Shown here piece after piece: positions 28,160 through 36,273 of a stretch of DNA of 36,273 nucleotides. The DNA lies in contig NZ_WIPH01000026.1 of NCBI RefSeq assembly GCF_009547075.1, positions 1 through 36,273 on the forward strand, in the 5' to 3' direction. Both the position numbers and the translations under genes were made by a program. Source of the DNA: Gluconobacter aidae (GTDB taxonomy: Bacteria; Pseudomonadota; Alphaproteobacteria; Acetobacterales; Acetobacteraceae). The notes under the pieces were generated by a model. That model had not been told where the DNA came from and did no database searches. It saw nothing but the letters and a program-made list of their open reading frames with translations. Each line of letters starts with the position of its first letter. The stretch's first letter is position 1.

Positions 28160-28680
28160 AAAGCTGCTTTCCAGCATCTTGGGACCTTCCGTTCGGGAAG
28201 CTGTATTGGCTTCCTCTCGGTCGGTGGCGGTGATTTATCAGCCTGCCCGGGGGGTGGCAATAGGGTTTTCTGAAAAAAAGCTCAGCCGGCCAAAAAAACT
28301 GCTTTGCCCGACAGGAGCGGGACGTGTCTTTTGTAACGGATCGAGACAGGCGCGGGGATGTCGTGATGCTGAATCGGATGAAGGCGTTTCTGCTGACGGG
28401 GATTTTTTTGCCGGTTCTGAACAACTGCGGCGTTCATCGCTCGTGCCGCGATCAATGGACACCCCGTCGCGCTGATCGTTGATATAAGGGCGTTCGCCAC
28501 TACGATCGGCTATGCACTCACATGGGATCCGGTCAGGAATTATCGCTATCATTTCGAAATCCTCCAGATGTCTGAGAAGCATTAACGGAGTTTCAATCAA
28601 CTGTTCTCTAGGAAGGTAAGCATCTGGTCGGCCGCATGCGGCTCCCGTGGTGTGATCTGTGTTTCTGGAGGCGGTCTGGC
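28160..28680. other. Intergenic region before the che operon, no credible gene
   Basis: About 520 bp between tRNA-Asp and the chemoreceptor gene. Short open frames exist on both strands (for example minus 28238-28600 and plus 28179-28475), but they have no recognisable family, no good ribosome-binding site and an unnatural residue mix. The region must hold the che promoter, yet I see no sigma-28-like or sigma-54-like sequence. It may contain a decayed gene that I cannot name. Confidence 0.5.
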
Positions 28681-30156
28681 ATGTCCGACATGCGCTTTGT
28701 TCCCATGCAACGGAGTTTCCTGTTGCGCAGGCGTCTGCTTCTGGCGTTTGCTGTTCCTCTTGCCGTTTCTGCCTGTCTGCTGGGCTGGAAACTGAAGATT
28801 GCCGGTATCCACACCGTCGGTGTCTGGAAGTCCGTTTTTCCCGAACTGGCTCTTCCTGCTCTCTTTGGTGTTACAGGAATTGTCGCTTTCTTTCAGGTGG
28901 CCACATGGGGAGACAGCCTGCTCGGAGCCGTGAGGCAACTCGCGGCAGAAGGAACACTGCCACGGAATGTCCGTGAAGCCAGCCTGATCCGGCTGCAAGC
29001 CATACTCGGCGAAGCGCGCACGTATGCCGAGCGAAGCGACGCCATGGCTGCCGCGGCGCAGTCTGCCCTTGCGACAGCCCGGATCGAGGCTGAAGAGACC
29101 CGTCAGTCTGCAAGGGAAGAAGTGTCCGGGCATGAACGGGTCATTGCGGTTCTTGGCAATGCCATGGCCAGCCTGCGCGATGGCGAACTGGATTTTCGTC
29201 TCGAGGAAGCTCTACCGGACCGGTACGACCGGTTGCGGCAGGCTTTCAACGATACCGCATCCTCGCTTCAGAAGATGATGGTTTCGCTGAATGACAGTAT
29301 TTCGACCATCTCGTCCGGATCTGCGGAAATCGCGTCGGCTGCGGATGATCTGGCCCGGCGGACGGAACTTCAGGTCGCCCGTCTGGAAGAAACCACGATC
29401 TCGGTTGGGAATGTCACGGAGACTGTTCGCAAGACGGCCGCAGCCTCCGTCCATGCCAGCGAGGTTGCAAGCCAGACTCGTGACCGGGCAGAGCGGTCGG
29501 GTGAAGTGATGGCAGCCGCTACCGCGGCCATGCAGGACATCCAGCAGTCTTCCATCCATATCGCGCAGATCCTTGGGCTGATTGATGATATCGCCTTTCA
29601 GACCAACCTTCTGGCATTGAATGCCGGCGTTGAAGCTGCTCGGGCGGGTGATGCGGGCAAGGGATTTGCCGTTGTGGCCGCTGAAGTCCGTGCTCTTGCC
29701 CAGCGCTCGGCCGATGCCGCCAAGGAAATCAAGGGACTTATCACCTCGAGTACGCAGCAGGTCAGCCGTGGCAGTTCTCTGGTTGAAGAGACGGGAACCG
29801 CGATGAAATCCATCGTGGAAAATGTCAGTGAAATCAGCGTCCTGATCGGTGAAATCGCGACTGCTGCGCGTAGTCAGGCCAACGACCTTTCGGAAATCAG
29901 TATTGCGGTCAGCCAGATGGACCAGAACACCCAGCAGAATGCTGCGATGGTCGAAGAAGCAACCGCAGCCAGTCATAATCTGAGCGCAGAAGCCCGGGAA
30001 CTCGTTGGAAGCCTTCAGCGGTTTCGTCTGAAGAGCATGCATGATGCGGAGCAACCTTTTTTAGAGAGCGAAGCGTCAGCTTTTCCTGCCCCGGAATCAC
30101 AGTGGGAGAGTGAGTCTTTTCAGACATCAGATGAAGGATGGGAGGAGTTCCGCTGA
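28681..30156 (+). CDS. Methyl-accepting chemotaxis protein without a sizeable periplasmic domain
   Basis: A 491-residue receptor. Two membrane helices (about residues 19-37 and 52-74) are joined by only about 14 residues, so there is no periplasmic sensor domain. A coiled coil, a HAMP-like region (about 140-200) and the MCP signalling domain follow. The invariant hairpin tip reads [20 protein letters not shown], then [18 protein letters not shown]. Methylation-helix Glu/Gln pairs flank it. The last residues are GWEEFR, a W-x-x-F pentapeptide-like tail (487-490) as used to tether CheR or CheB. The ATG at 28681 follows GGAGG by nine bases; the frame is open to 28636. It is the first gene of the che operon, and its stop shares a base with the next start (TGATG). 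Confidence 0.93.
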
Positions 30157-30425
30157 TGAGCATTCTGATGCTGCCCGAGATACTGGACACCGGATATGCC
30201 GTTCCTTTTTCGGAACGTCTCAAAAAGGAAGAAAGGGATTTTGTTTTTGACGGCAGTCAGGTTGGCCGGGTCGGTGGCCTGTGCTTCCAGTTGCTTGTTT
30301 CCGCATACCGTACGGCGCGAATGCAGGGTTCAAGGTTCGAAATCAGGAATATTTCTGATGCGATGAAGGAAAATCTTCGGCTGATGGGGGGAGACTTCCT
30401 CCTGGAGGCGCAGGGCGACGCATGA
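30156..30425 (+). CDS. STAS-domain chemotaxis accessory protein (CheS-like position)
   Basis: An 89-residue single STAS domain. Visible are the beta strand DFVFDGSQVGRVGGLCFQLL, which covers the loop normally bearing the phosphorylatable Ser/Thr, and the later NISDAMKENLRLMG helix. The usual phospho-Ser in the D-S/T-S-G loop is not obvious here: the loop reads SQVGRVGG. Genes of this size stand between the receptor and cheY1 in other alphaproteobacterial che operons, where in Sinorhizobium the product (CheS) binds CheA and speeds loss of phosphate from the phosphate-sink CheY. That role is inferred from position only. The start overlaps the receptor stop; the end overlaps cheY1 by four bases. 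Confidence 0.78.
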   Translation: MSILMLPEILDTGYAVPFSERLKKEERDFVFDGSQVGRVGGLCFQLLVSAYRTARMQGSRFEIRNISDAMKENLRLMGGDFLLEAQGDA

Positions 30426-30781
30426 ATATCCTGATCGTTGATGATTCCCGAACCATGAGGGACCTAATCAGCCGAGAACTGCGCAACGACGGTTATGATG
30501 TGGAAACATCGGAAGATGGCGTCGAGGCGCTGGAGAAAATTTCTCATTTTCTGCCAGCTGTCGTCATAACGGATCTGAATATGCCGCGTATGGACGGATT
30601 GCAACTGACCAGAGCCCTGCGTGCGCGGTCAGACACAAAATACGTTCCCATTATTTTTCTGACCACGGAATCCGGAGATGATCTTCGACGCGCCGCACGT
30701 GAGGCGGGTGCGACCGGCTGGATTGTCAAACCGTTCGATGGTCCCAGGCTGATTGCAGCGGTGAGGCGTGTCAGCGCATGA
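30422..30781 (+). CDS. cheY: Chemotaxis response regulator CheY (first copy)
   Basis: A 119-residue single receiver domain. The acidic pocket is Asp7-Asp8 in LIVDDSRTMR, the phosphorylated Asp is Asp51 in VITDLNMPRMDG, the switch Thr is in IFLTTESG and the Lys is in GWIVKPF. By position (before cheA) it matches CheY1 of Sinorhizobium-type operons, which acts as a phosphate sink, while the second copy drives the motor. Which copy does what here is not shown by sequence. It overlaps its neighbours by four bases on both sides. Confidence 0.95.
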   Translation: MNILIVDDSRTMRDLISRELRNDGYDVETSEDGVEALEKISHFLPAVVITDLNMPRMDGLQLTRALRARSDTKYVPIIFLTTESGDDLRRAAREAGATGWIVKPFDGPRLIAAVRRVSA

Positions 30782-32826
30782 ACACTGAAGATTTCACCGA
30801 GGATATGGACGCGATCCGGCTGATCTTCTTTGACGAATGCGATGAGCAACTTACCCTTCTTGAAGAAGAGTTGACGGCGCTTGAGGAAGAGCCGGGAAAT
30901 GGAGAGAAGATCAACACGATCTTTCGATGTGTTCACTCGATCAAAGGCGGAGCGGCCGCCTTCGGGATGGAAGATCTGGTAAGATTTTCTCATCTTTTTG
31001 AAAGTGTGCTTGACCGCTTCCGGTCAGGAGAATTGTCTGTAAATGCTGAGAGTATCAAAATTTTTCTCAAGTGTAAGGATGCACTGTCGGATATCGTTGC
31101 GAGTTTTAAAAATGGTGCCAGTACCTACGGGGTTGCTCCCGAGATAACCGCCGACCTGAAGCGCTACCTCGGATCTGACGTCTCGGAACCTGAGTCGACC
31201 TCTGAAAATGTCGAGATGGAAGATATCTTCGGGATGTCTTTTGCTCCGGTTAAAATCGAAATTGATGGACCCAGTGAGCGGCAGTTTTCAATTGTCCTGA
31301 CTGTATCGTCGGAGTTTTATGAACGCGGGGATGACGTCCGGAATATCCTGATGGCATTGGGTGGCCTGGGTCAGGTCAACGTGCAGGTTGATAGCGATGC
31401 TGTGCCATTCCTTTCTGATATTTCAGTCTGCCAGAGTTATCTGACCTGGCAAATTCTCCTGACAACAGAAAAGTCAAGAGAGAGTATTGACGAGATTTTT
31501 GACTGGTGCGCCGATGATCTGCGTGCGGTCGTTACATCCGTACCCGAAGAGCCCAAGCAAATCACAGTGCCATCGGCTCCGGATGTGGAAGAGAAAACAG
31601 ATCTACCGGTCAGGAAAGGAACTGAACGCAAGGACTCTGCGACCGTGCGGGTTGATATCCAGCGGATCGACAAGCTGGTCGATCTGATTGGAGAACTGGT
31701 GATCAATCATGGAGCCATTCAATCTCAGATGCGTCGTAACAAGGTCCCCGGAGATTCATTTCTGGGGACCGTGGTCACAGCGCAGGAGCAGCTTATCCAC
31801 GAACTGCAGGAAAACGTCATTACGATGCGCGCCTATCCGATCAAGACGGTCTTCCAGAAACTGGGCCGTGTTGTGCGTGAGACCGCCAGACTGACAGGAA
31901 AACAGGTTCGGCTTGTGCTGGAGGGAGAAGACACGGAGGTCGATCGGTCCATTCTCGAAAAGTTGTCCGATCCTCTGACGCACATGGTGCGTAATGCCAT
32001 TGATCATGGCATTGAAAGTCCAGAAGTCAGAATACAGGAAGGAAAGGCTCCGGAGGGCCTGCTTCGACTACGAGCCTTTCAACGTTCTGGTCGAATTATC
32101 GTGGAAATTCAGGATGACGGAACTGGCTTAGATCCGGACAAAATTTATGGCAAAGCTGTTGAAAAGAAGATTATTGAAAAAGACCAAAAGCTGGATCGGG
32201 AAGAAATCTATTCCCTGATTTTCGAGCCGGGGTTCTCGACTGTTGCGGAAGTGACGGATGTTTCTGGTCGGGGCGTGGGGATGGACGTTGTCAAACAAAG
32301 TCTCCAGCAGATCAACGGGCGGATTTTCATCAATTCCGCGAAGGGAAGAGGGACGATATTTTCGATTTCCCTGCCTTTTACCCTCTCCGTTATCGAAGGC
32401 ATTATTTTCAAATCAGAAGGGCAGGATTTTGTAATTCCAATCAATAATGTTTCGGAGACGATAATATTTGACAATAAGAAAGCTTTCCATATTGGAGATG
32501 GGAAATATGGATATCCTTATCGGGATAGTTATCTGTCCGTAATTTATGCTTCTGATCTGCTTGGTCTTCCTTCTTGCAAAAAAAATCAGAAAATATGCTT
32601 CGTAATTGAAAATGAAAACGAAGAAAAAATGGCATTAATTGTTGATAAGATTATAGATCAATCGAGATTTGTAGTAAAAAATCTTGAAGATAATTATCGA
32701 AAAATTGACTGCTTCTCTACTGCGACCATTTTAGGAGATGGTAACGTAGCATTTATTCTTGATGTAGAATTTCTATTTGGTGAACTTTTGAAGAAAAGGG
32801 AAAATTCACTGGAGGAAAGCGTATGA
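30778..32826 (+). CDS. cheA: Chemotaxis histidine kinase CheA
   Basis: A 682-residue kinase with the usual five parts: the HPt domain P1 (1 to about 110; His53 in VHSIKGGAAAFG), a P2-like CheY-binding domain (about 155-255), a linker, the dimerisation helices P3 (about 287-355; VRVDIQRIDKLVDLIGEL), the ATPase P4 (N box VRNAIDHGIE 404-413, G1 DDGTGL 446-451, F box FEPGFST 482-488, G2 GRGVGM 497-502) and the CheW-like P5 (about 536-682). It phosphorylates both CheY proteins and CheB in response to receptors. Base composition drops sharply at the P5 boundary (near 32400); bases 32641-32700 have 15 G or C in 60. ATGA overlaps join it to cheY1 and cheW. Confidence 0.97.
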   Translation: MNTEDFTEDMDAIRLIFFDECDEQLTLLEEELTALEEEPGNGEKINTIFRCVHSIKGGAAAFGMEDLVRFSHLFESVLDRFRSGELSVNAESIKIFLKCKDALSDIVASFKNGASTYGVAPEITADLKRYLGSDVSEPESTSENVEMEDIFGMSFAPVKIEIDGPSERQFSIVLTVSSEFYERGDDVRNILMALGGLGQVNVQVDSDAVPFLSDISVCQSYLTWQILLTTEKSRESIDEIFDWCADDLRAVVTSVPEEPKQITVPSAPDVEEKTDLPVRKGTERKDSATVRVDIQRIDKLVDLIGELVINHGAIQSQMRRNKVPGDSFLGTVVTAQEQLIHELQENVITMRAYPIKTVFQKLGRVVRETARLTGKQVRLVLEGEDTEVDRSILEKLSDPLTHMVRNAIDHGIESPEVRIQEGKAPEGLLRLRAFQRSGRIIVEIQDDGTGLDPDKIYGKAVEKKIIEKDQKLDREEIYSLIFEPGFSTVAEVTDVSGRGVGMDVVKQSLQQINGRIFINSAKGRGTIFSISLPFTLSVIEGIIFKSEGQDFVIPINNVSETIIFDNKKAFHIGDGKYGYPYRDSYLSVIYASDLLGLPSCKKNQKICFVIENENEEKMALIVDKIIDQSRFVVKNLEDNYRKIDCFSTATILGDGNVAFILDVEFLFGELLKKRENSLEESV

Positions 32827-33251
32827 TTGAGGAAAAAATGCTTATTTTTTCTTTGGGAAATCAGGAATTTTCCATCCAGATTTCGGTTGTCAAAGAAATC
32901 AAGATCTGGTCGAAGGCAACACCTTTCCCGGCGGCGCCGACATTTGTCGAAGGAGTGGTGAATGTCCGGGGATCAGTCATCCCACTCGTGGACATGGCCC
33001 GGATGATGGGTGTTACTGAGAACGAAAATGAGAAAAGGGCTATTATTTTCCTGGAAAACAAAGACAAGGTTATCGGGTTTTCGGTTTCGAATGTGACAGA
33101 TATTTCGGGTGTAGATGACGAAAGTTTCAAGCCGCTTCCAGAAATTTCCAGCGATCACCTCAAATATTTTTTGAATGGAATCCAGTCGATAGCAGATCGT
33201 CTGATATTTTCTGTGAATGTGGACGCACTGTTTGAAGGAAGTCTGCAATGA
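32823..33251 (+). CDS. cheW: Chemotaxis adaptor CheW
   Basis: A 142-residue adaptor that links receptors to CheA. Conserved CheW features are seen: FSLGNQEFSIQISVVKEI, the PAAPTFVEGVVNVRGSVIPL segment with the N-x-R-G motif, VDMARMMG, and VGFSVSNVTDI (from VIGFSVSNVTDI). It is unusually AT-rich for this genome, continuous with the AT-rich P5 end of cheA. ATGA overlaps join it to cheA and cheR. Confidence 0.96.
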   Translation: MIEEKMLIFSLGNQEFSIQISVVKEIKIWSKATPFPAAPTFVEGVVNVRGSVIPLVDMARMMGVTENENEKRAIIFLENKDKVIGFSVSNVTDISGVDDESFKPLPEISSDHLKYFLNGIQSIADRLIFSVNVDALFEGSLQ

Positions 33252-34105
33252 CGGTAGTCAGTATGCTGGAAAAAGACGGCGTTTCAGACGAAAACTTCCG
33301 AATTATTGCCGGAATTGCCCTGAATTATGCCGGGATTTCTCTGTCAGAAAAGAAAAAAAACCTCGTCTATTCGCGAATTTCTCGCCGTGTGCGCCAGACA
33401 GGTTTTGGTTGTTTTGATGAATACTGTGCTTTCCTGATGAGTGAAGCGGGTGCCGCTGAACAGCAGCACCTCGTCTCGGCGCTGACAACAAATGTCACCA
33501 GCTTTTATCGGGAAAAACATCATTTTGTATGTCTGGAGCGTCTGCTTCGTCAGCAGTTATATGCCCGTCTTGGGCGTGGAGAAGAACTCAGGATCTGGTC
33601 CGCCGCCTGCTCGAGTGGTGAAGAGGCATATTCGATCGCCATGACAGTCATGAAGTGTCTGTCCACCATCCCGAATTTGAAAGCGAAAATTCTGGCGACA
33701 GATATTGATTCTGATGTTCTGAGGCAGGCTCGCTTGGGAAGCTATGCTTCCGCAGAAGCCGCAGCTCTTTTTGAAGATGGAATGCTGACGTCTTGTCGGC
33801 TTGAGGGCAATCGGATCGTCATGTCCGAAAAAATCCGGGATATGATCCGTTTCCGACATCTTAATCTATTGGAACCCTGGCCATTCTCATCCTGTTTTCA
33901 TGCTATTTTCTGCAGAAATGTTGCGATATATTTCGATCGCGAAACGCAGGATAGATTATGGGGCAGTCTCTCTGAACGTATTGTTCCCGGGGGAGAACTT
34001 TATCTGGGCCATTCGGAGCGTATCGCTCATCCTGAGCGCTTTGGAATGGAAAGCATGGGATATAATGCCTATCGCAAGGTTTCATCCGGCGGGAGGCGCT
34101 CTTGA
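33248..34105 (+). CDS. cheR: Chemotaxis protein methyltransferase CheR
   Basis: A 285-residue enzyme that methylates receptor glutamates using S-adenosylmethionine. The N-terminal helical domain (1 to about 80) carries the receptor-binding part, with TTNVTSFYREKHHF at its end. The SAM-binding motif is IWSAACSSGEEAYSIAM, then KILATDIDSDVL, and the late motif is FCRNVAIYFDRETQ. The first 30 residues are still AT-rich, the rest closer to the genome average. Its target tail may be the WEEF end of the receptor encoded at 28681. The stop overlaps the cheB TTG start. Confidence 0.96.
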   Translation: MTVVSMLEKDGVSDENFRIIAGIALNYAGISLSEKKKNLVYSRISRRVRQTGFGCFDEYCAFLMSEAGAAEQQHLVSALTTNVTSFYREKHHFVCLERLLRQQLYARLGRGEELRIWSAACSSGEEAYSIAMTVMKCLSTIPNLKAKILATDIDSDVLRQARLGSYASAEAAALFEDGMLTSCRLEGNRIVMSEKIRDMIRFRHLNLLEPWPFSSCFHAIFCRNVAIYFDRETQDRLWGSLSERIVPGGELYLGHSERIAHPERFGMESMGYNAYRKVSSGGRRS

Positions 34106-35157
34106 GTGCTTCCAGACCTGTGACCGTTGTCGTCGTCGATGATTCCCTGACGACCCGCGCCTTGATCGCCGCAGCGCTCCGCAGGGATCCCAGAGTAAAG
34201 ATCGTAGGAACTGCGGGCACGCCGTTTGAGGCTCGTGATCTTATCGTGCGATTGAATCCTGATGTGCTGACGCTCGATTTCGAGATGCCGTCTATGAACG
34301 GTCTGCAGTTTCTTGAAAAAATCATGCGATTGCGGCCGATGCCCGTGGTGATGGTTTCGGGTCATCTTTCCAGCCATCGGGGACTAGTTGAGCAGTCGCT
34401 ACGGATGGGAGCGGCGGAGTGGTATTCGAAATCGACCGTCACAAGTGGCGAGGAGCCGTTTGCGGGCCTGGGAGATGCGATTGTCCGGGCTGTGACCGTG
34501 AAGAAGCCAGTTCCTGTGCCAGTTGACGCTCTGGCCGGAAACAGGATTTCCCTGCAGACAGGAACGGTGGTCGGGATTGGCGCATCGACCGGTGGTGTGG
34601 AAGCCCTGACGGATGTTTTGGGGCATTTCCCTGTGGCCTGTCCGCCGACGGTTATTGTGCAGCACATGCCGCGCCAATTCTCAGAAAGCTTTGCACGTCG
34701 TCTGGACCGGATTGTGAAGCCGGAGGTCAGATTGGCGGAAGATGGCGATATGCTGAAGCCTGGTACGGTTTATGTCGCGTCGGGTGGAGAGCGCCATCTG
34801 CGTGTTCGCTGTGGCGCCCGGTCTGGCGAATATGTCTGTCAACTGGTTGCGGCCCCTCCCGTCAATGGACACCGTCCATCCGTGGATGAACTGTTCTATT
34901 CCCTTGCTGCCACAGTCGGGAAAAATGCCATCGGGGTCATCCTGACCGGAATGGAATGCGACGGCGCGCAGGGTTTGCTGGCTATGCGTCATGCCGGAGC
35001 TTCCACCCTCGGTCAGGATCGGGCGAGTTCCGTCATCTATGGTATGCCCCGGGCAGCATATGAACTGGGTGCCGTCGAGAAGCAGCTTCCCCTTTCCGCT
35101 ATCGGCTCCGCCATTCTCAATCTTTGTGAACGCCGTTCTCTGGAGACATGTCCATGA
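34102..35157 (+). CDS. cheB: Chemotaxis protein-glutamate methylesterase CheB
   Basis: A 351-residue response regulator esterase. The receiver domain (about 6-125) has Asp13-Asp14 and phospho-Asp59 in LTLDFEMPSMNG. The esterase domain (about 152-350) has the catalytic triad Ser162 in GIGASTGGVEAL, His188 in VQHMPRQF, and the late Asp in LTGMECDGAQG. It removes methyl groups added by CheR. The start is a TTG at 34102 overlapping the cheR stop (TTGA), with GGGAGG five bases upstream. Use of TTG where nearly all neighbours use ATG may lower its translation. The end overlaps cheY2. Confidence 0.96.
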   Translation: MSASRPVTVVVVDDSLTTRALIAAALRRDPRVKIVGTAGTPFEARDLIVRLNPDVLTLDFEMPSMNGLQFLEKIMRLRPMPVVMVSGHLSSHRGLVEQSLRMGAAEWYSKSTVTSGEEPFAGLGDAIVRAVTVKKPVPVPVDALAGNRISLQTGTVVGIGASTGGVEALTDVLGHFPVACPPTVIVQHMPRQFSESFARRLDRIVKPEVRLAEDGDMLKPGTVYVASGGERHLRVRCGARSGEYVCQLVAAPPVNGHRPSVDELFYSLAATVGKNAIGVILTGMECDGAQGLLAMRHAGASTLGQDRASSVIYGMPRAAYELGAVEKQLPLSAIGSAILNLCERRSLETCP

Positions 35158-35549
35158 TTTCCGCCTCCTCCATGTCAGTCCTTCTTGTCGACGATCAGAC
35201 CACCATTCGCTCTATCCTGCGTAATACGCTGACCCAGATCGGCTTCGTACAGATCGCGGGTGTCCGGAATGGGCTGGAAGCGCTTGAGCACCTCAAAAAC
35301 AATCAGGTTCATCTGATTATTTCAGATTTCAACATGCCGGACATGGATGGGCTTGAACTTCTCAAAGCAGTCAGAAGCAATGCACGCACGGCGAAAACTG
35401 GTTTCATCATGTTGACCGGGCAGGCCAGCAAGGAGCTGGTGCAACAGGCCATTGCGGAAGGGGTGAATAATTTCCTGGCCAAGCCTTTTACGGCCAGTTC
35501 GCTCAAATCCCGTATCGAAGCCGTTTTTGGACCGATCTGCAGTGTCTGA
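35154..35549 (+). CDS. cheY: Chemotaxis response regulator CheY (second copy)
   Basis: A 131-residue single receiver domain from the ATG at 35154, which overlaps the cheB stop (ATGA) as at the other junctions; an in-frame ATG at 35148 is also possible. The acidic pocket is Asp13-Asp14 in LLVDDQTTIR, the phospho-Asp is Asp58 in LIISDFNMPDMDG, the Thr is in IMLTGQ and the Lys is in FLAKPF. By position after cheB it matches CheY2, the motor-binding regulator in Sinorhizobium-type operons. It differs clearly from the first copy. Confidence 0.94.
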   Translation: MISASSMSVLLVDDQTTIRSILRNTLTQIGFVQIAGVRNGLEALEHLKNNQVHLIISDFNMPDMDGLELLKAVRSNARTAKTGFIMLTGQASKELVQQAIAEGVNNFLAKPFTASSLKSRIEAVFGPICSV

Positions 35550-35880
35550 GGCGTCAGGGAAGCTGGCATTGTCGCAAATTCTGCAAGGCGTGGGTGTGCA
35601 ACTGGCTGTAAGCCTTCAGGACCTGCGGCAGCTGGAGGATGCATGTCTGAAGGCGTGTCGGGGTGAGAGTGCCGCGTGCCTGCAGGATTTCGACAGAATC
35701 ACGCAGGTTCTGGACCAGTTGGCGCAGTGTTGCGAGCAACTGAGTCATGAGAGCGGTGTGAGGGAGGTGCAGGTTCAGCGTTCCATAGTGGATCGTCTGA
35801 CACTCTCAGAGGTTCGGCAGCGCCTGCTGGCAGGCGCCATTCAGGTTTCCCCCGAGGCGGGGGAGATAGAATTTTTCTGA
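35542..35880 (+). CDS. Small helical protein with CheZ-like D-x-x-x-Q motif (CheT-like position)
   Basis: A 112-residue protein starting at the GTG at 35542, which overlaps the cheY2 stop by eight bases; a TTG at 35527 is in frame. It looks almost all helical. Residues 48-62 read QDFDRITQVLDQLAQ, with Asp51 and Gln55 spaced D-x-x-x-Q. In E. coli CheZ the helix that inserts Gln147 into the CheY active site reads DLTGQVI, with Asp143 contacting CheY; the resemblance covers several flanking residues too. The C-terminus ends EIEFF. It stands last in the operon, like CheT of Sinorhizobium. A CheY-P phosphatase role is a proposal from motif and position. No wider similarity to CheZ can be claimed by eye. 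Confidence 0.7.
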   Translation: MSEASGKLALSQILQGVGVQLAVSLQDLRQLEDACLKACRGESAACLQDFDRITQVLDQLAQCCEQLSHESGVREVQVQRSIVDRLTLSEVRQRLLAGAIQVSPEAGEIEFF

Positions 35881-35898: not shown

Positions 35899-36273
35899 TC
35901 AGCTCGGCTTGCTGGCGTCATCGGGATTGGAGCGGATCATGGTCCGTTGTTTCTGTAGGCCACGAATGATCTGTTCGACGTCCTGCGGGCCGAAGACGAT
36001 CCCCACCGGACCATAAGCCGGGTGCTGGAAAGCCAGCATGGAGCCTTCGGTCAGGGCATCGATCTGCAAGGCCCAGTTCGTTGTGTAGACCGGCGTAAAG
36101 CGCGCACCGGCAATAGATGCTGGCGGCTGCGTTTCAATGAGGCTCGCATGCGCCAGACCGAGACTGGTGATTAACTGGGCGAGCTGCTTCTCGTCCAGGG
36201 CAATGCTGCCTGACACGCCGCTGCCTTGCAGAAAAGACAGGATGATGGCCTTGCCGTCCTCTGAACGTGTGAC
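35899..36273 (-). CDS. Hypothetical protein (C-terminal part, runs off right edge)
   Basis: The last 124 codons of a minus-strand gene whose 5' end is outside the window. The frame is open to 36273; the GTG at 36216 is internal. No family recognised. It looks like a compact alpha/beta protein: DGKAIILSFLQGSGVSG and NWALQIDALTEGSMLAFQHP suggest strands, and DVEQIIRGLQKQRTMI a C-terminal helix. It converges on the che operon with an 18-bp gap. Confidence 0.7.
   Translation of the reverse strand, partial: VTRSEDGKAIILSFLQGSGVSGSIALDEKQLAQLITSLGLAHASLIETQPPASIAGARFTPVYTTNWALQIDALTEGSMLAFQHPAYGPVGIVFGPQDVEQIIRGLQKQRTMIRSNPDDASKPS

Follow-up and report, generated by a model that had tools for sequence, protein, structure and literature searches.

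A Probable CheT Counterpart Closes the Chemotaxis Cluster of Gluconobacter aidae

The Chemotaxis Cluster and Its Terminal Gene

The window analysed in this study, i.e., the whole 36,273-nucleotide stretch of contig NZ_WIPH01000026.1 from Gluconobacter aidae, carries a chemotaxis (che) cluster on its forward strand. The cluster starts with the gene of a methyl-accepting chemotaxis protein (MCP; positions 28636 to 30156; PF00015, 1.8e-49), followed by genes encoding a STAS-domain CheS-like protein (30138 to 30425; PF13466 STAS_2, 1.2e-10), whose place is likewise held by a STAS gene in the S. meliloti operon, a CheY1-type response regulator (30422 to 30781; 49% and 34% identity to S. meliloti CheY1 and CheY2, respectively), CheA (30778 to 32826; domains Hpt, H-kinase_dim, HATPase_c, and CheW), CheW (32823 to 33251; PF01584, 6.5e-27), CheR (33248 to 34105; PF01739, 4.1e-53), CheB (34102 to 35157; PF01339, 7.1e-59), and a CheY2-type response regulator (35148 to 35549; 51% and 34% identity to S. 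meliloti CheY2 and CheY1, respectively). The CheY1-type protein is presumed to be a phosphate sink and the likelier CheT substrate, and the CheY2-type protein is presumed to be the motor regulator. The gene considered here, a cheT homologue, closes the cluster.

Two cheY genes, as listed in the original prediction, are present, and its statement that cheZ, cheX, cheC, and cheD were not visible held for the whole genome: the CheZ, CheD, and CheX profiles yielded no match, and the CheC profile gave a single match below cut-off (E 0.92). Furthermore, CheD was above cut-off in none of the seven Gluconobacter genomes searched. With CheD absent from the window, cheT abuts cheY2, its GTG start overlapping the cheY2 stop by 8 bases. 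The lack of CheD between the two genes was observed in Gluconobacter (35148 to 35880 of the window), and two loci from other genera (L065 and L066) share it.

Translation of the frame at 35542 to 35880 (+) confirmed a product of 112 residues with QDFDRITQVLDQLAQ at residues 48 to 62. An alternative TTG start is open at position 35527, 15 bases upstream of the GTG codon, and would extend the protein to 117 residues. The nearest named relatives found were Gluconobacter sp. P1C6_b and G. oxydans NBRC 14819, the CheT proteins of which are 85–87% identical to that of the window. The dN/dS values obtained in comparison with these two were 0.072/0.293 and 0.084/0.247 (ratio about 0.25–0.34) and therefore indicate a constrained gene; the 112-residue reading frame is a real gene under purifying selection. 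Its product is small (12.2 kDa), as is the S. meliloti protein (13.5 kDa). The convergent gene adjoining cheT (35899 to 36216, − strand) is 71–96% identical in three relatives, and its product had no match in a Pfam and NCBIfam scan.

Relationship to CheT of S. meliloti

The position of the gene had been likened to that of CheT in Sinorhizobium-type operons, and this comparison is sustained by gene order as well as by profile homology. In S. meliloti (CP090106.1), the order is globin-coupled sensor, STAS, Y1, A, W, R, B, Y2, cheD, LZK74_19305, and fliF. LZK74_19305, located after cheD and before fliF, encodes 124 amino acids with the motif LQGIDLAVQ and the C-terminus AGDFEAF; it is annotated as hypothetical and reached 225.5 bits against the NCBIfam CheT model NF047973, for which the curated cut-off is 200. 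According to passages of a review (PMC12654446), CheT features a DXXXQ motif and a CheZ-like AlphaFold model, and the S. meliloti protein speeds the dephosphorylation of one CheY only and has been reported in complex with CheR. The record that bears this che cluster by fliF is 3.7 Mb long and labelled pSymB (L160, CP090106.1), a label that, judging by the size, may be swapped with that of the chromosome.

Profile searches against the CheZ and CheT families had been proposed as a check. Neither NF047973 (no match at E up to 10) nor the CheZ family PF04344 recognised the window protein, and the link to CheT was obtained by means of a 23-row profile of operon-final proteins, comprising 22 sequences of the window's family and one of its class, with Gluconobacter and rhizobia absent. 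This profile scored S. meliloti CheT with 61.1 bits, a homologue from locus L003 with 47.7 bits, and the window protein with 41.8 bits, and the best of 2000 shuffles each reached 10.9 bits for the window protein and 13.9 bits for S. meliloti CheT. After deletion of the nine motif residues, the scores were 27.2 bits for the window protein (shuffles at most 11.7) and 45.7 bits for S. meliloti (shuffles at most 7.4), and deletion of the motif alone reduced two further members, L154 and L155, to 13.8 and 6.8 bits, respectively. When motif and tail were both deleted, the window protein fell to 9.3 bits, under the shuffles (11.7), and S. meliloti CheT still scored 37.3 bits.

Searched against 3415 open reading frames of 44 loci, the profile returned 42 matches of at least 26.5 bits, with the next best at 10.1 bits. 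These matches represent 36 distinct operon genes, 23 of which are the profile's own rows. A 34-row profile without Gluconobacter sequences had cheT as its sole match in the window's genome (E 1.1e-9). In a class-wide search using the 27-member A2 set, 23 of 385 genomes were found at E 0.01, and nine of them (the own genome plus eight others) fell below 1e-5. Within the A2 set, NF047973 recognised 13 of the 27 sequences (E up to 1), the best of them at 1.2e-9, and a Komagataeibacter member scored 13.3 bits.

Judged by these sequence comparisons, the reading frame is almost certainly a divergent Gluconobacter counterpart of CheT, the last gene of the S. meliloti che operon. Both proteins are encoded at the end of an operon of the type MCP-CheS-Y1-A-W-R-B-Y2-(D)-T, and both share Q-x-x-D-x-x-x-Q and a C-terminal G-[DE]-x-E-x-F, at 124 and 112 amino acids, respectively. 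They differ in that the window protein is too diverged for NF047973 and in that CheD is absent from the Gluconobacter operon and genome. The protein widens a recently described family and is no new kind of system.

Occurrence and Gene Order in Related Genomes

Among 299 family genomes, a direct protein search reached only three, the own genome included, and the neighbouring CheB was therefore used as the query. CheB matches were obtained in 105 of 200 family genomes and 45 of 289 class genomes, and 60 loci were fetched, namely the best 34 of the family (leaving out G085, a near-duplicate tied with G149) and the best 26 of the class. The gene-order layout covered the CheT-bearing loci and six wider views.

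CheT was detected by profile in 22 of the best 34 family loci. Fourteen of these display the full order CheS-Y1-A-W-R-B-Y2-CheD-CheT; among the other eight, five lack CheY2, two lack CheD, and one is cut by the contig end. The 12 family loci without CheT comprise three from the same genus and nine clusters, mostly of different layout. Hypothetical proteins occupy the same place in Komagataeibacter saccharivorans and Acetobacter orientalis, and cheT was annotated as hypothetical in all three records inspected (S. meliloti UIJ95574.1, Komagataeibacter WP_132306917.1, and Acetobacter BBC81834.1). A rearranged order, MCP-STAS-A-R-B-D-Y1-W-CheT, was observed in L153/L220, where the single regulator is of the CheY1 type and CheT has no Phe-ended tail.

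Among seven genomes of the genus, CheT was found in three (E 1.1e-9 or better); in the other four, the best values (0.013–0.86) lay within other long frames, and no CheT was detected. Three of these four genomes (L078, L087, and L089) keep CheA-W-R-B-Y2 with no CheT after cheY2, and in two of the three, a different contig was shown to carry CheS and CheY1. The cheA gene of three Gluconobacter genomes besides that of the window contains a long hexanucleotide repeat before the dimerisation domain (L087, 1 to 70; L089, 1 to 150; L221, 1 to 760; L222, 5316 to 6118), and the assemblies break there. In two of the three genomes, the repeat translates as (Thr-Pro)n; it is possibly a kinase linker of variable length.

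The Putative Active Site and Comparison with Other CheY Phosphatases

The presumed phosphatase site consists of Gln48-x-x-Asp51-x-x-x-Gln55 (codons at 35683 to 35706, + strand), and all 38 aligned members, mostly 13–31% identical to the reference row, share Gln48, Asp51, and Gln55. Leu88 (34 of 38), Leu95 (35), and Gly107 (31) are conserved to a lesser degree. The protein ends in G-E-I-E-F-F (35860 to 35877, + strand), a candidate docking peptide; 31 of the 38 members end in Phe, the tail is absent in five, and two carry a few residues after it. Both site and tail are kept in the L003 homologue at 30% identity. The conservation of Asp51 and Gln55 among orthologues, which had been named as a check, was found throughout (38/38), but this invariance is partly built in, since most of the first 27 members had been chosen by operon position and the D...Q pattern, the remaining members being chosen by profile or position. 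L065, recovered by position alone, has both Asp and Gln.

The D-x-x-x-Q spacing of the CheZ catalytic helix is indeed present at Asp51 and Gln55, but by itself it does not go beyond chance: among 100,000 shuffles of the window protein, D...Q occurred in 55% and Q..D...Q in 8%. It is the conservation in homologues that raises the motif above chance. The supposed agreement in the preceding residues, QDF as in CheZ, was not confirmed, the E. coli CheZ reading QDFQDLTGQ and the window protein QDFDRITQ; when D and Q are aligned with CheZ, the QDF of the window is therefore one residue out of register. In the CheZ motif AXXFQ (PMC7750401), F-Q stands before D-x-x-x-Q. The window protein departs from it, with Phe directly before Asp51 and Gln three residues before. 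The F-Q-D-x-x-x-Q of CheZ is to be set against Q-x-[mostly hydrophobic]-D-x-x-x-Q of the CheT family.

The search for CheZ relatives by sequence was negative. PF04344 had no match in the window protein, in the 27 A2 members (0/27, E up to 1), or in the whole genome, and alignment of the 38-row family alignment with 21 CheZ sequences using hhalign gave probabilities of 0.4% (local) and 0.2% (global). The kinship with CheZ proposed originally is accordingly not supported at the sequence level. Likewise, the window protein did not match PF13690 and PF04509 (CheX/CheC). In another che cluster of the family (L097), a frame that begins at the stop of the cheY2-type gene encodes a 225-amino-acid protein with SFQDLTGQ, which looks like a true CheZ.

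The AlphaFold monomer model (three sequences) comprises helices at residues 4–39, 45–71, and 88–96 with a mean pLDDT of 55, and Asp51 and Gln55 are placed early in the second helix. At this low confidence, a two-helix hairpin is plausible for the window CheT. A Foldseek search with the model revealed nothing below E 0.67, and the VIA-align matches were hairpins from many unrelated families; the PDB structures matched are of a generic helical hairpin type.

What the window protein has in common with CheZ (PF04344; E. coli, Azorhizobium) is D-x-x-x-Q in a predicted helix, a predicted, low-confidence helical hairpin, a tail ending in Phe, and, putatively, the removal of phosphate from CheY; it is, however, only half as long. 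Most of the fetched CheZ sequences end in an acidic stretch followed by Phe, and by comparison the CheT tail may dock CheY. CheC, CheX, and FliY likewise remove CheY phosphate, but enter the CheY site with Asn instead of Gln, as described for these enzymes (PMC3035606).

Proposed Mechanism and Presumed Substrate

Taken as a whole, the observations are best explained by a CheT counterpart that works like CheZ, preferably on CheY1, for which we estimate a probability of roughly 0.7. By analogy, the window protein is quite probably a DxxxQ phosphatase, and a CheZ-like way of working is likely. In CheZ, Gln147 and an acidic residue reach into the active site of CheY, where Gln orients a water molecule and the acid pairs with a lysine (PMC3035606); the distance of the Gln from the phospho-site is 5.7 Å. 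Two CheZ hairpins build a four-helix bundle, and a helix at the C-terminus binds CheY. Correspondingly, CheT would fold as a short two-helix hairpin and probably pair with a second copy to form a four-helix bundle. Asp51 would contact the conserved lysine of phosphorylated CheY, Gln55 would enter the active site and orient the water hydrolysing the aspartyl phosphate, and the acidic-aromatic tail may aid docking. According to a review (PMC8429497), the signal is propagated by CheY2 in rhizobia, and CheY1, aided by CheS, serves as a phosphate sink. CheT would empty the CheY1 sink that drains CheY2 via CheA and CheS, resulting in faster signal termination. Binding of CheR, described for the S. 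meliloti protein in a review (PMC12654446), may be a further function.

The original prediction had suggested that this gene could supply a signal-off step missing from acetic acid bacteria. That it does so alone is not supported, as CheS-like and CheY1-type genes are present in the window and three genomes of the genus keep the cluster without CheT. With CheS and CheY1 present, the sink can provide for termination, and the off-step is therefore probably not missing; it is probably common to CheY1, CheS, and CheT.

On the basis of co-occurrence, the CheY1-type protein (30422 to 30781) is rather likely to be the main substrate. CheY1-type genes were found in 35 of 36 fetched CheT clusters, the remaining one (L076) being cut by the contig end, and CheY2-type genes in 30 of 36. 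No CheY2 orthologue was found by whole-genome search in six CheT-bearing genomes from three lineages (genera g68 and g54, family f13), although this call is weaker for f13, where CheY2 proteins may be more diverged. With the window CheY2 as query, the best matches in five of the six genomes were 32–36% identical, and the sixth had none at E 1e-15. These five best matches are CheY1-type genes themselves (60–71% identity to S. meliloti CheY1 and 31–37% to three CheY2 proteins), and two of the six clusters hold a second receiver with 38–40% identity to CheY1. CheY1 is the likelier substrate because CheT persists in six genomes that yielded no CheY2 orthologue and a CheY1-type gene occurs in 35 of 35 readable clusters; since the clusters were found via CheB or CheT, this co-occurrence may partly reflect a shared cluster type. 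Agbekudzi et al., in 2024, are said to have identified CheY1 as the CheY acted on by S. meliloti CheT.

A direct action of CheT on CheY2, the motor regulator, in the manner of CheZ on CheY in E. coli, which would make CheT the principal off-switch, seems unlikely. The overlap of cheT with the cheY2 stop by 8 bases, the sequence of which is the same in two relatives, would fit such a role, as would the position of cheT directly after cheY2 in 8 of the 30 CheY2-bearing clusters and the lack of CheZ, CheC, and CheX above cut-off in the genome. However, cheD lies between the two genes in the other 22 clusters, and CheT persists in six genomes, representing three lineages, in which the search revealed no CheY2 orthologue. 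Moreover, S. meliloti CheT acts on one of the two CheY proteins only, according to the review (PMC12654446).

Even less probable is a non-catalytic adaptor that connects adaptation with the array by binding CheR, and perhaps also CheA or CheY, Asp and Gln being structural. The reported CheT–CheR complex of S. meliloti (PMC12654446), the size typical of a helical adaptor, and the presence of cheR in the same operon are compatible with this role, but all 38 members retain D-x-x-x-Q despite identities to the reference row of mostly 13–31%, (F)-Q-D-x-x-x-Q recurs in 16 of 16 cases of a homologous receptor-borne domain (see below), and phosphatase activity has been reported for S. meliloti CheT in the same review. 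A decaying, non-functional CheT remnant in Gluconobacter, as might be suspected from the lack of CheD above cut-off in seven genomes of the genus, the absence of CheT from three that keep the che cluster, and the standing of the window protein among the lower-scoring members outside the NCBIfam CheT model, is highly improbable given the intact frame, the dN/dS of about 0.25–0.34, and the site and tail preserved in L003 at 30% identity.

A CheT-Like Domain on Receptor-Like Proteins

In 16 of 35 other loci (L090–L124), the reading frame after cheB encodes a short MCP-like protein that ends in a CheT-like domain (L090, L099, L100, L102–L105, L108, L110, L111, L115, L117–L119, L122, and L123). All 16 ends contain Q-[FV]-Q-D-x-x-x-Q, 14 of them with the F-Q-D of CheZ, and [ED]-L-F forms the terminus of every tail. 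Profile alignment of these ends with CheT spanned 108 columns with a score of 49.5 and a probability of 95%. The controls remained below this value (at most 19.0 for 100 column-shuffled CheT alignments, 13.2 for the reversed alignment, and 14.1 for the 150 residues that precede these ends), and the score was still 36.0 without the motif columns and 38.9 without the tail. The alignment of the receptor-borne domain with CheZ was nonsignificant (score 22.6; one of 100 column shuffles reached 30.3). Pfam and NCBIfam named the MCP part in nine of the receptor-like proteins and no phosphatase, and no free-standing CheT was found in the fetched stretches of the 16 loci.

Tentatively, CheT may belong to a broader class of alphaproteobacterial CheY-phosphatase domains that are either free-standing at the operon end or fused to the C-terminus of short MCP-like proteins, with the free form acting on the only CheY where CheY2 is absent. 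As the fused form combines the F-Q-D-x-x-x-Q of CheZ with a Phe-ended tail, the receptor-like proteins would bear their own off-switch.

Implications for Acetic Acid Bacteria

The window CheT stems from an acetic acid bacterium, beyond the relatives named in the review (PMC12654446), and our literature search on CheT in acetic acid bacteria found no mention of this group. The profile built in this study detects CheT beyond rhizobia, and the recognition of the gene leads to the predictions that the substrate is of the CheY1 type, that CheT occurs in genomes without CheY2, and that receptor-like proteins carry a phosphatase domain. If the wider-domain proposal is true, chemoreceptor-like proteins of these bacteria would carry their own putative CheY off-switch, and in lineages without CheY2 the sole CheY would be the direct target of the free-standing form. 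With the recognition of this gene as a CheT counterpart, acetic acid bacteria gain a candidate CheY phosphatase.
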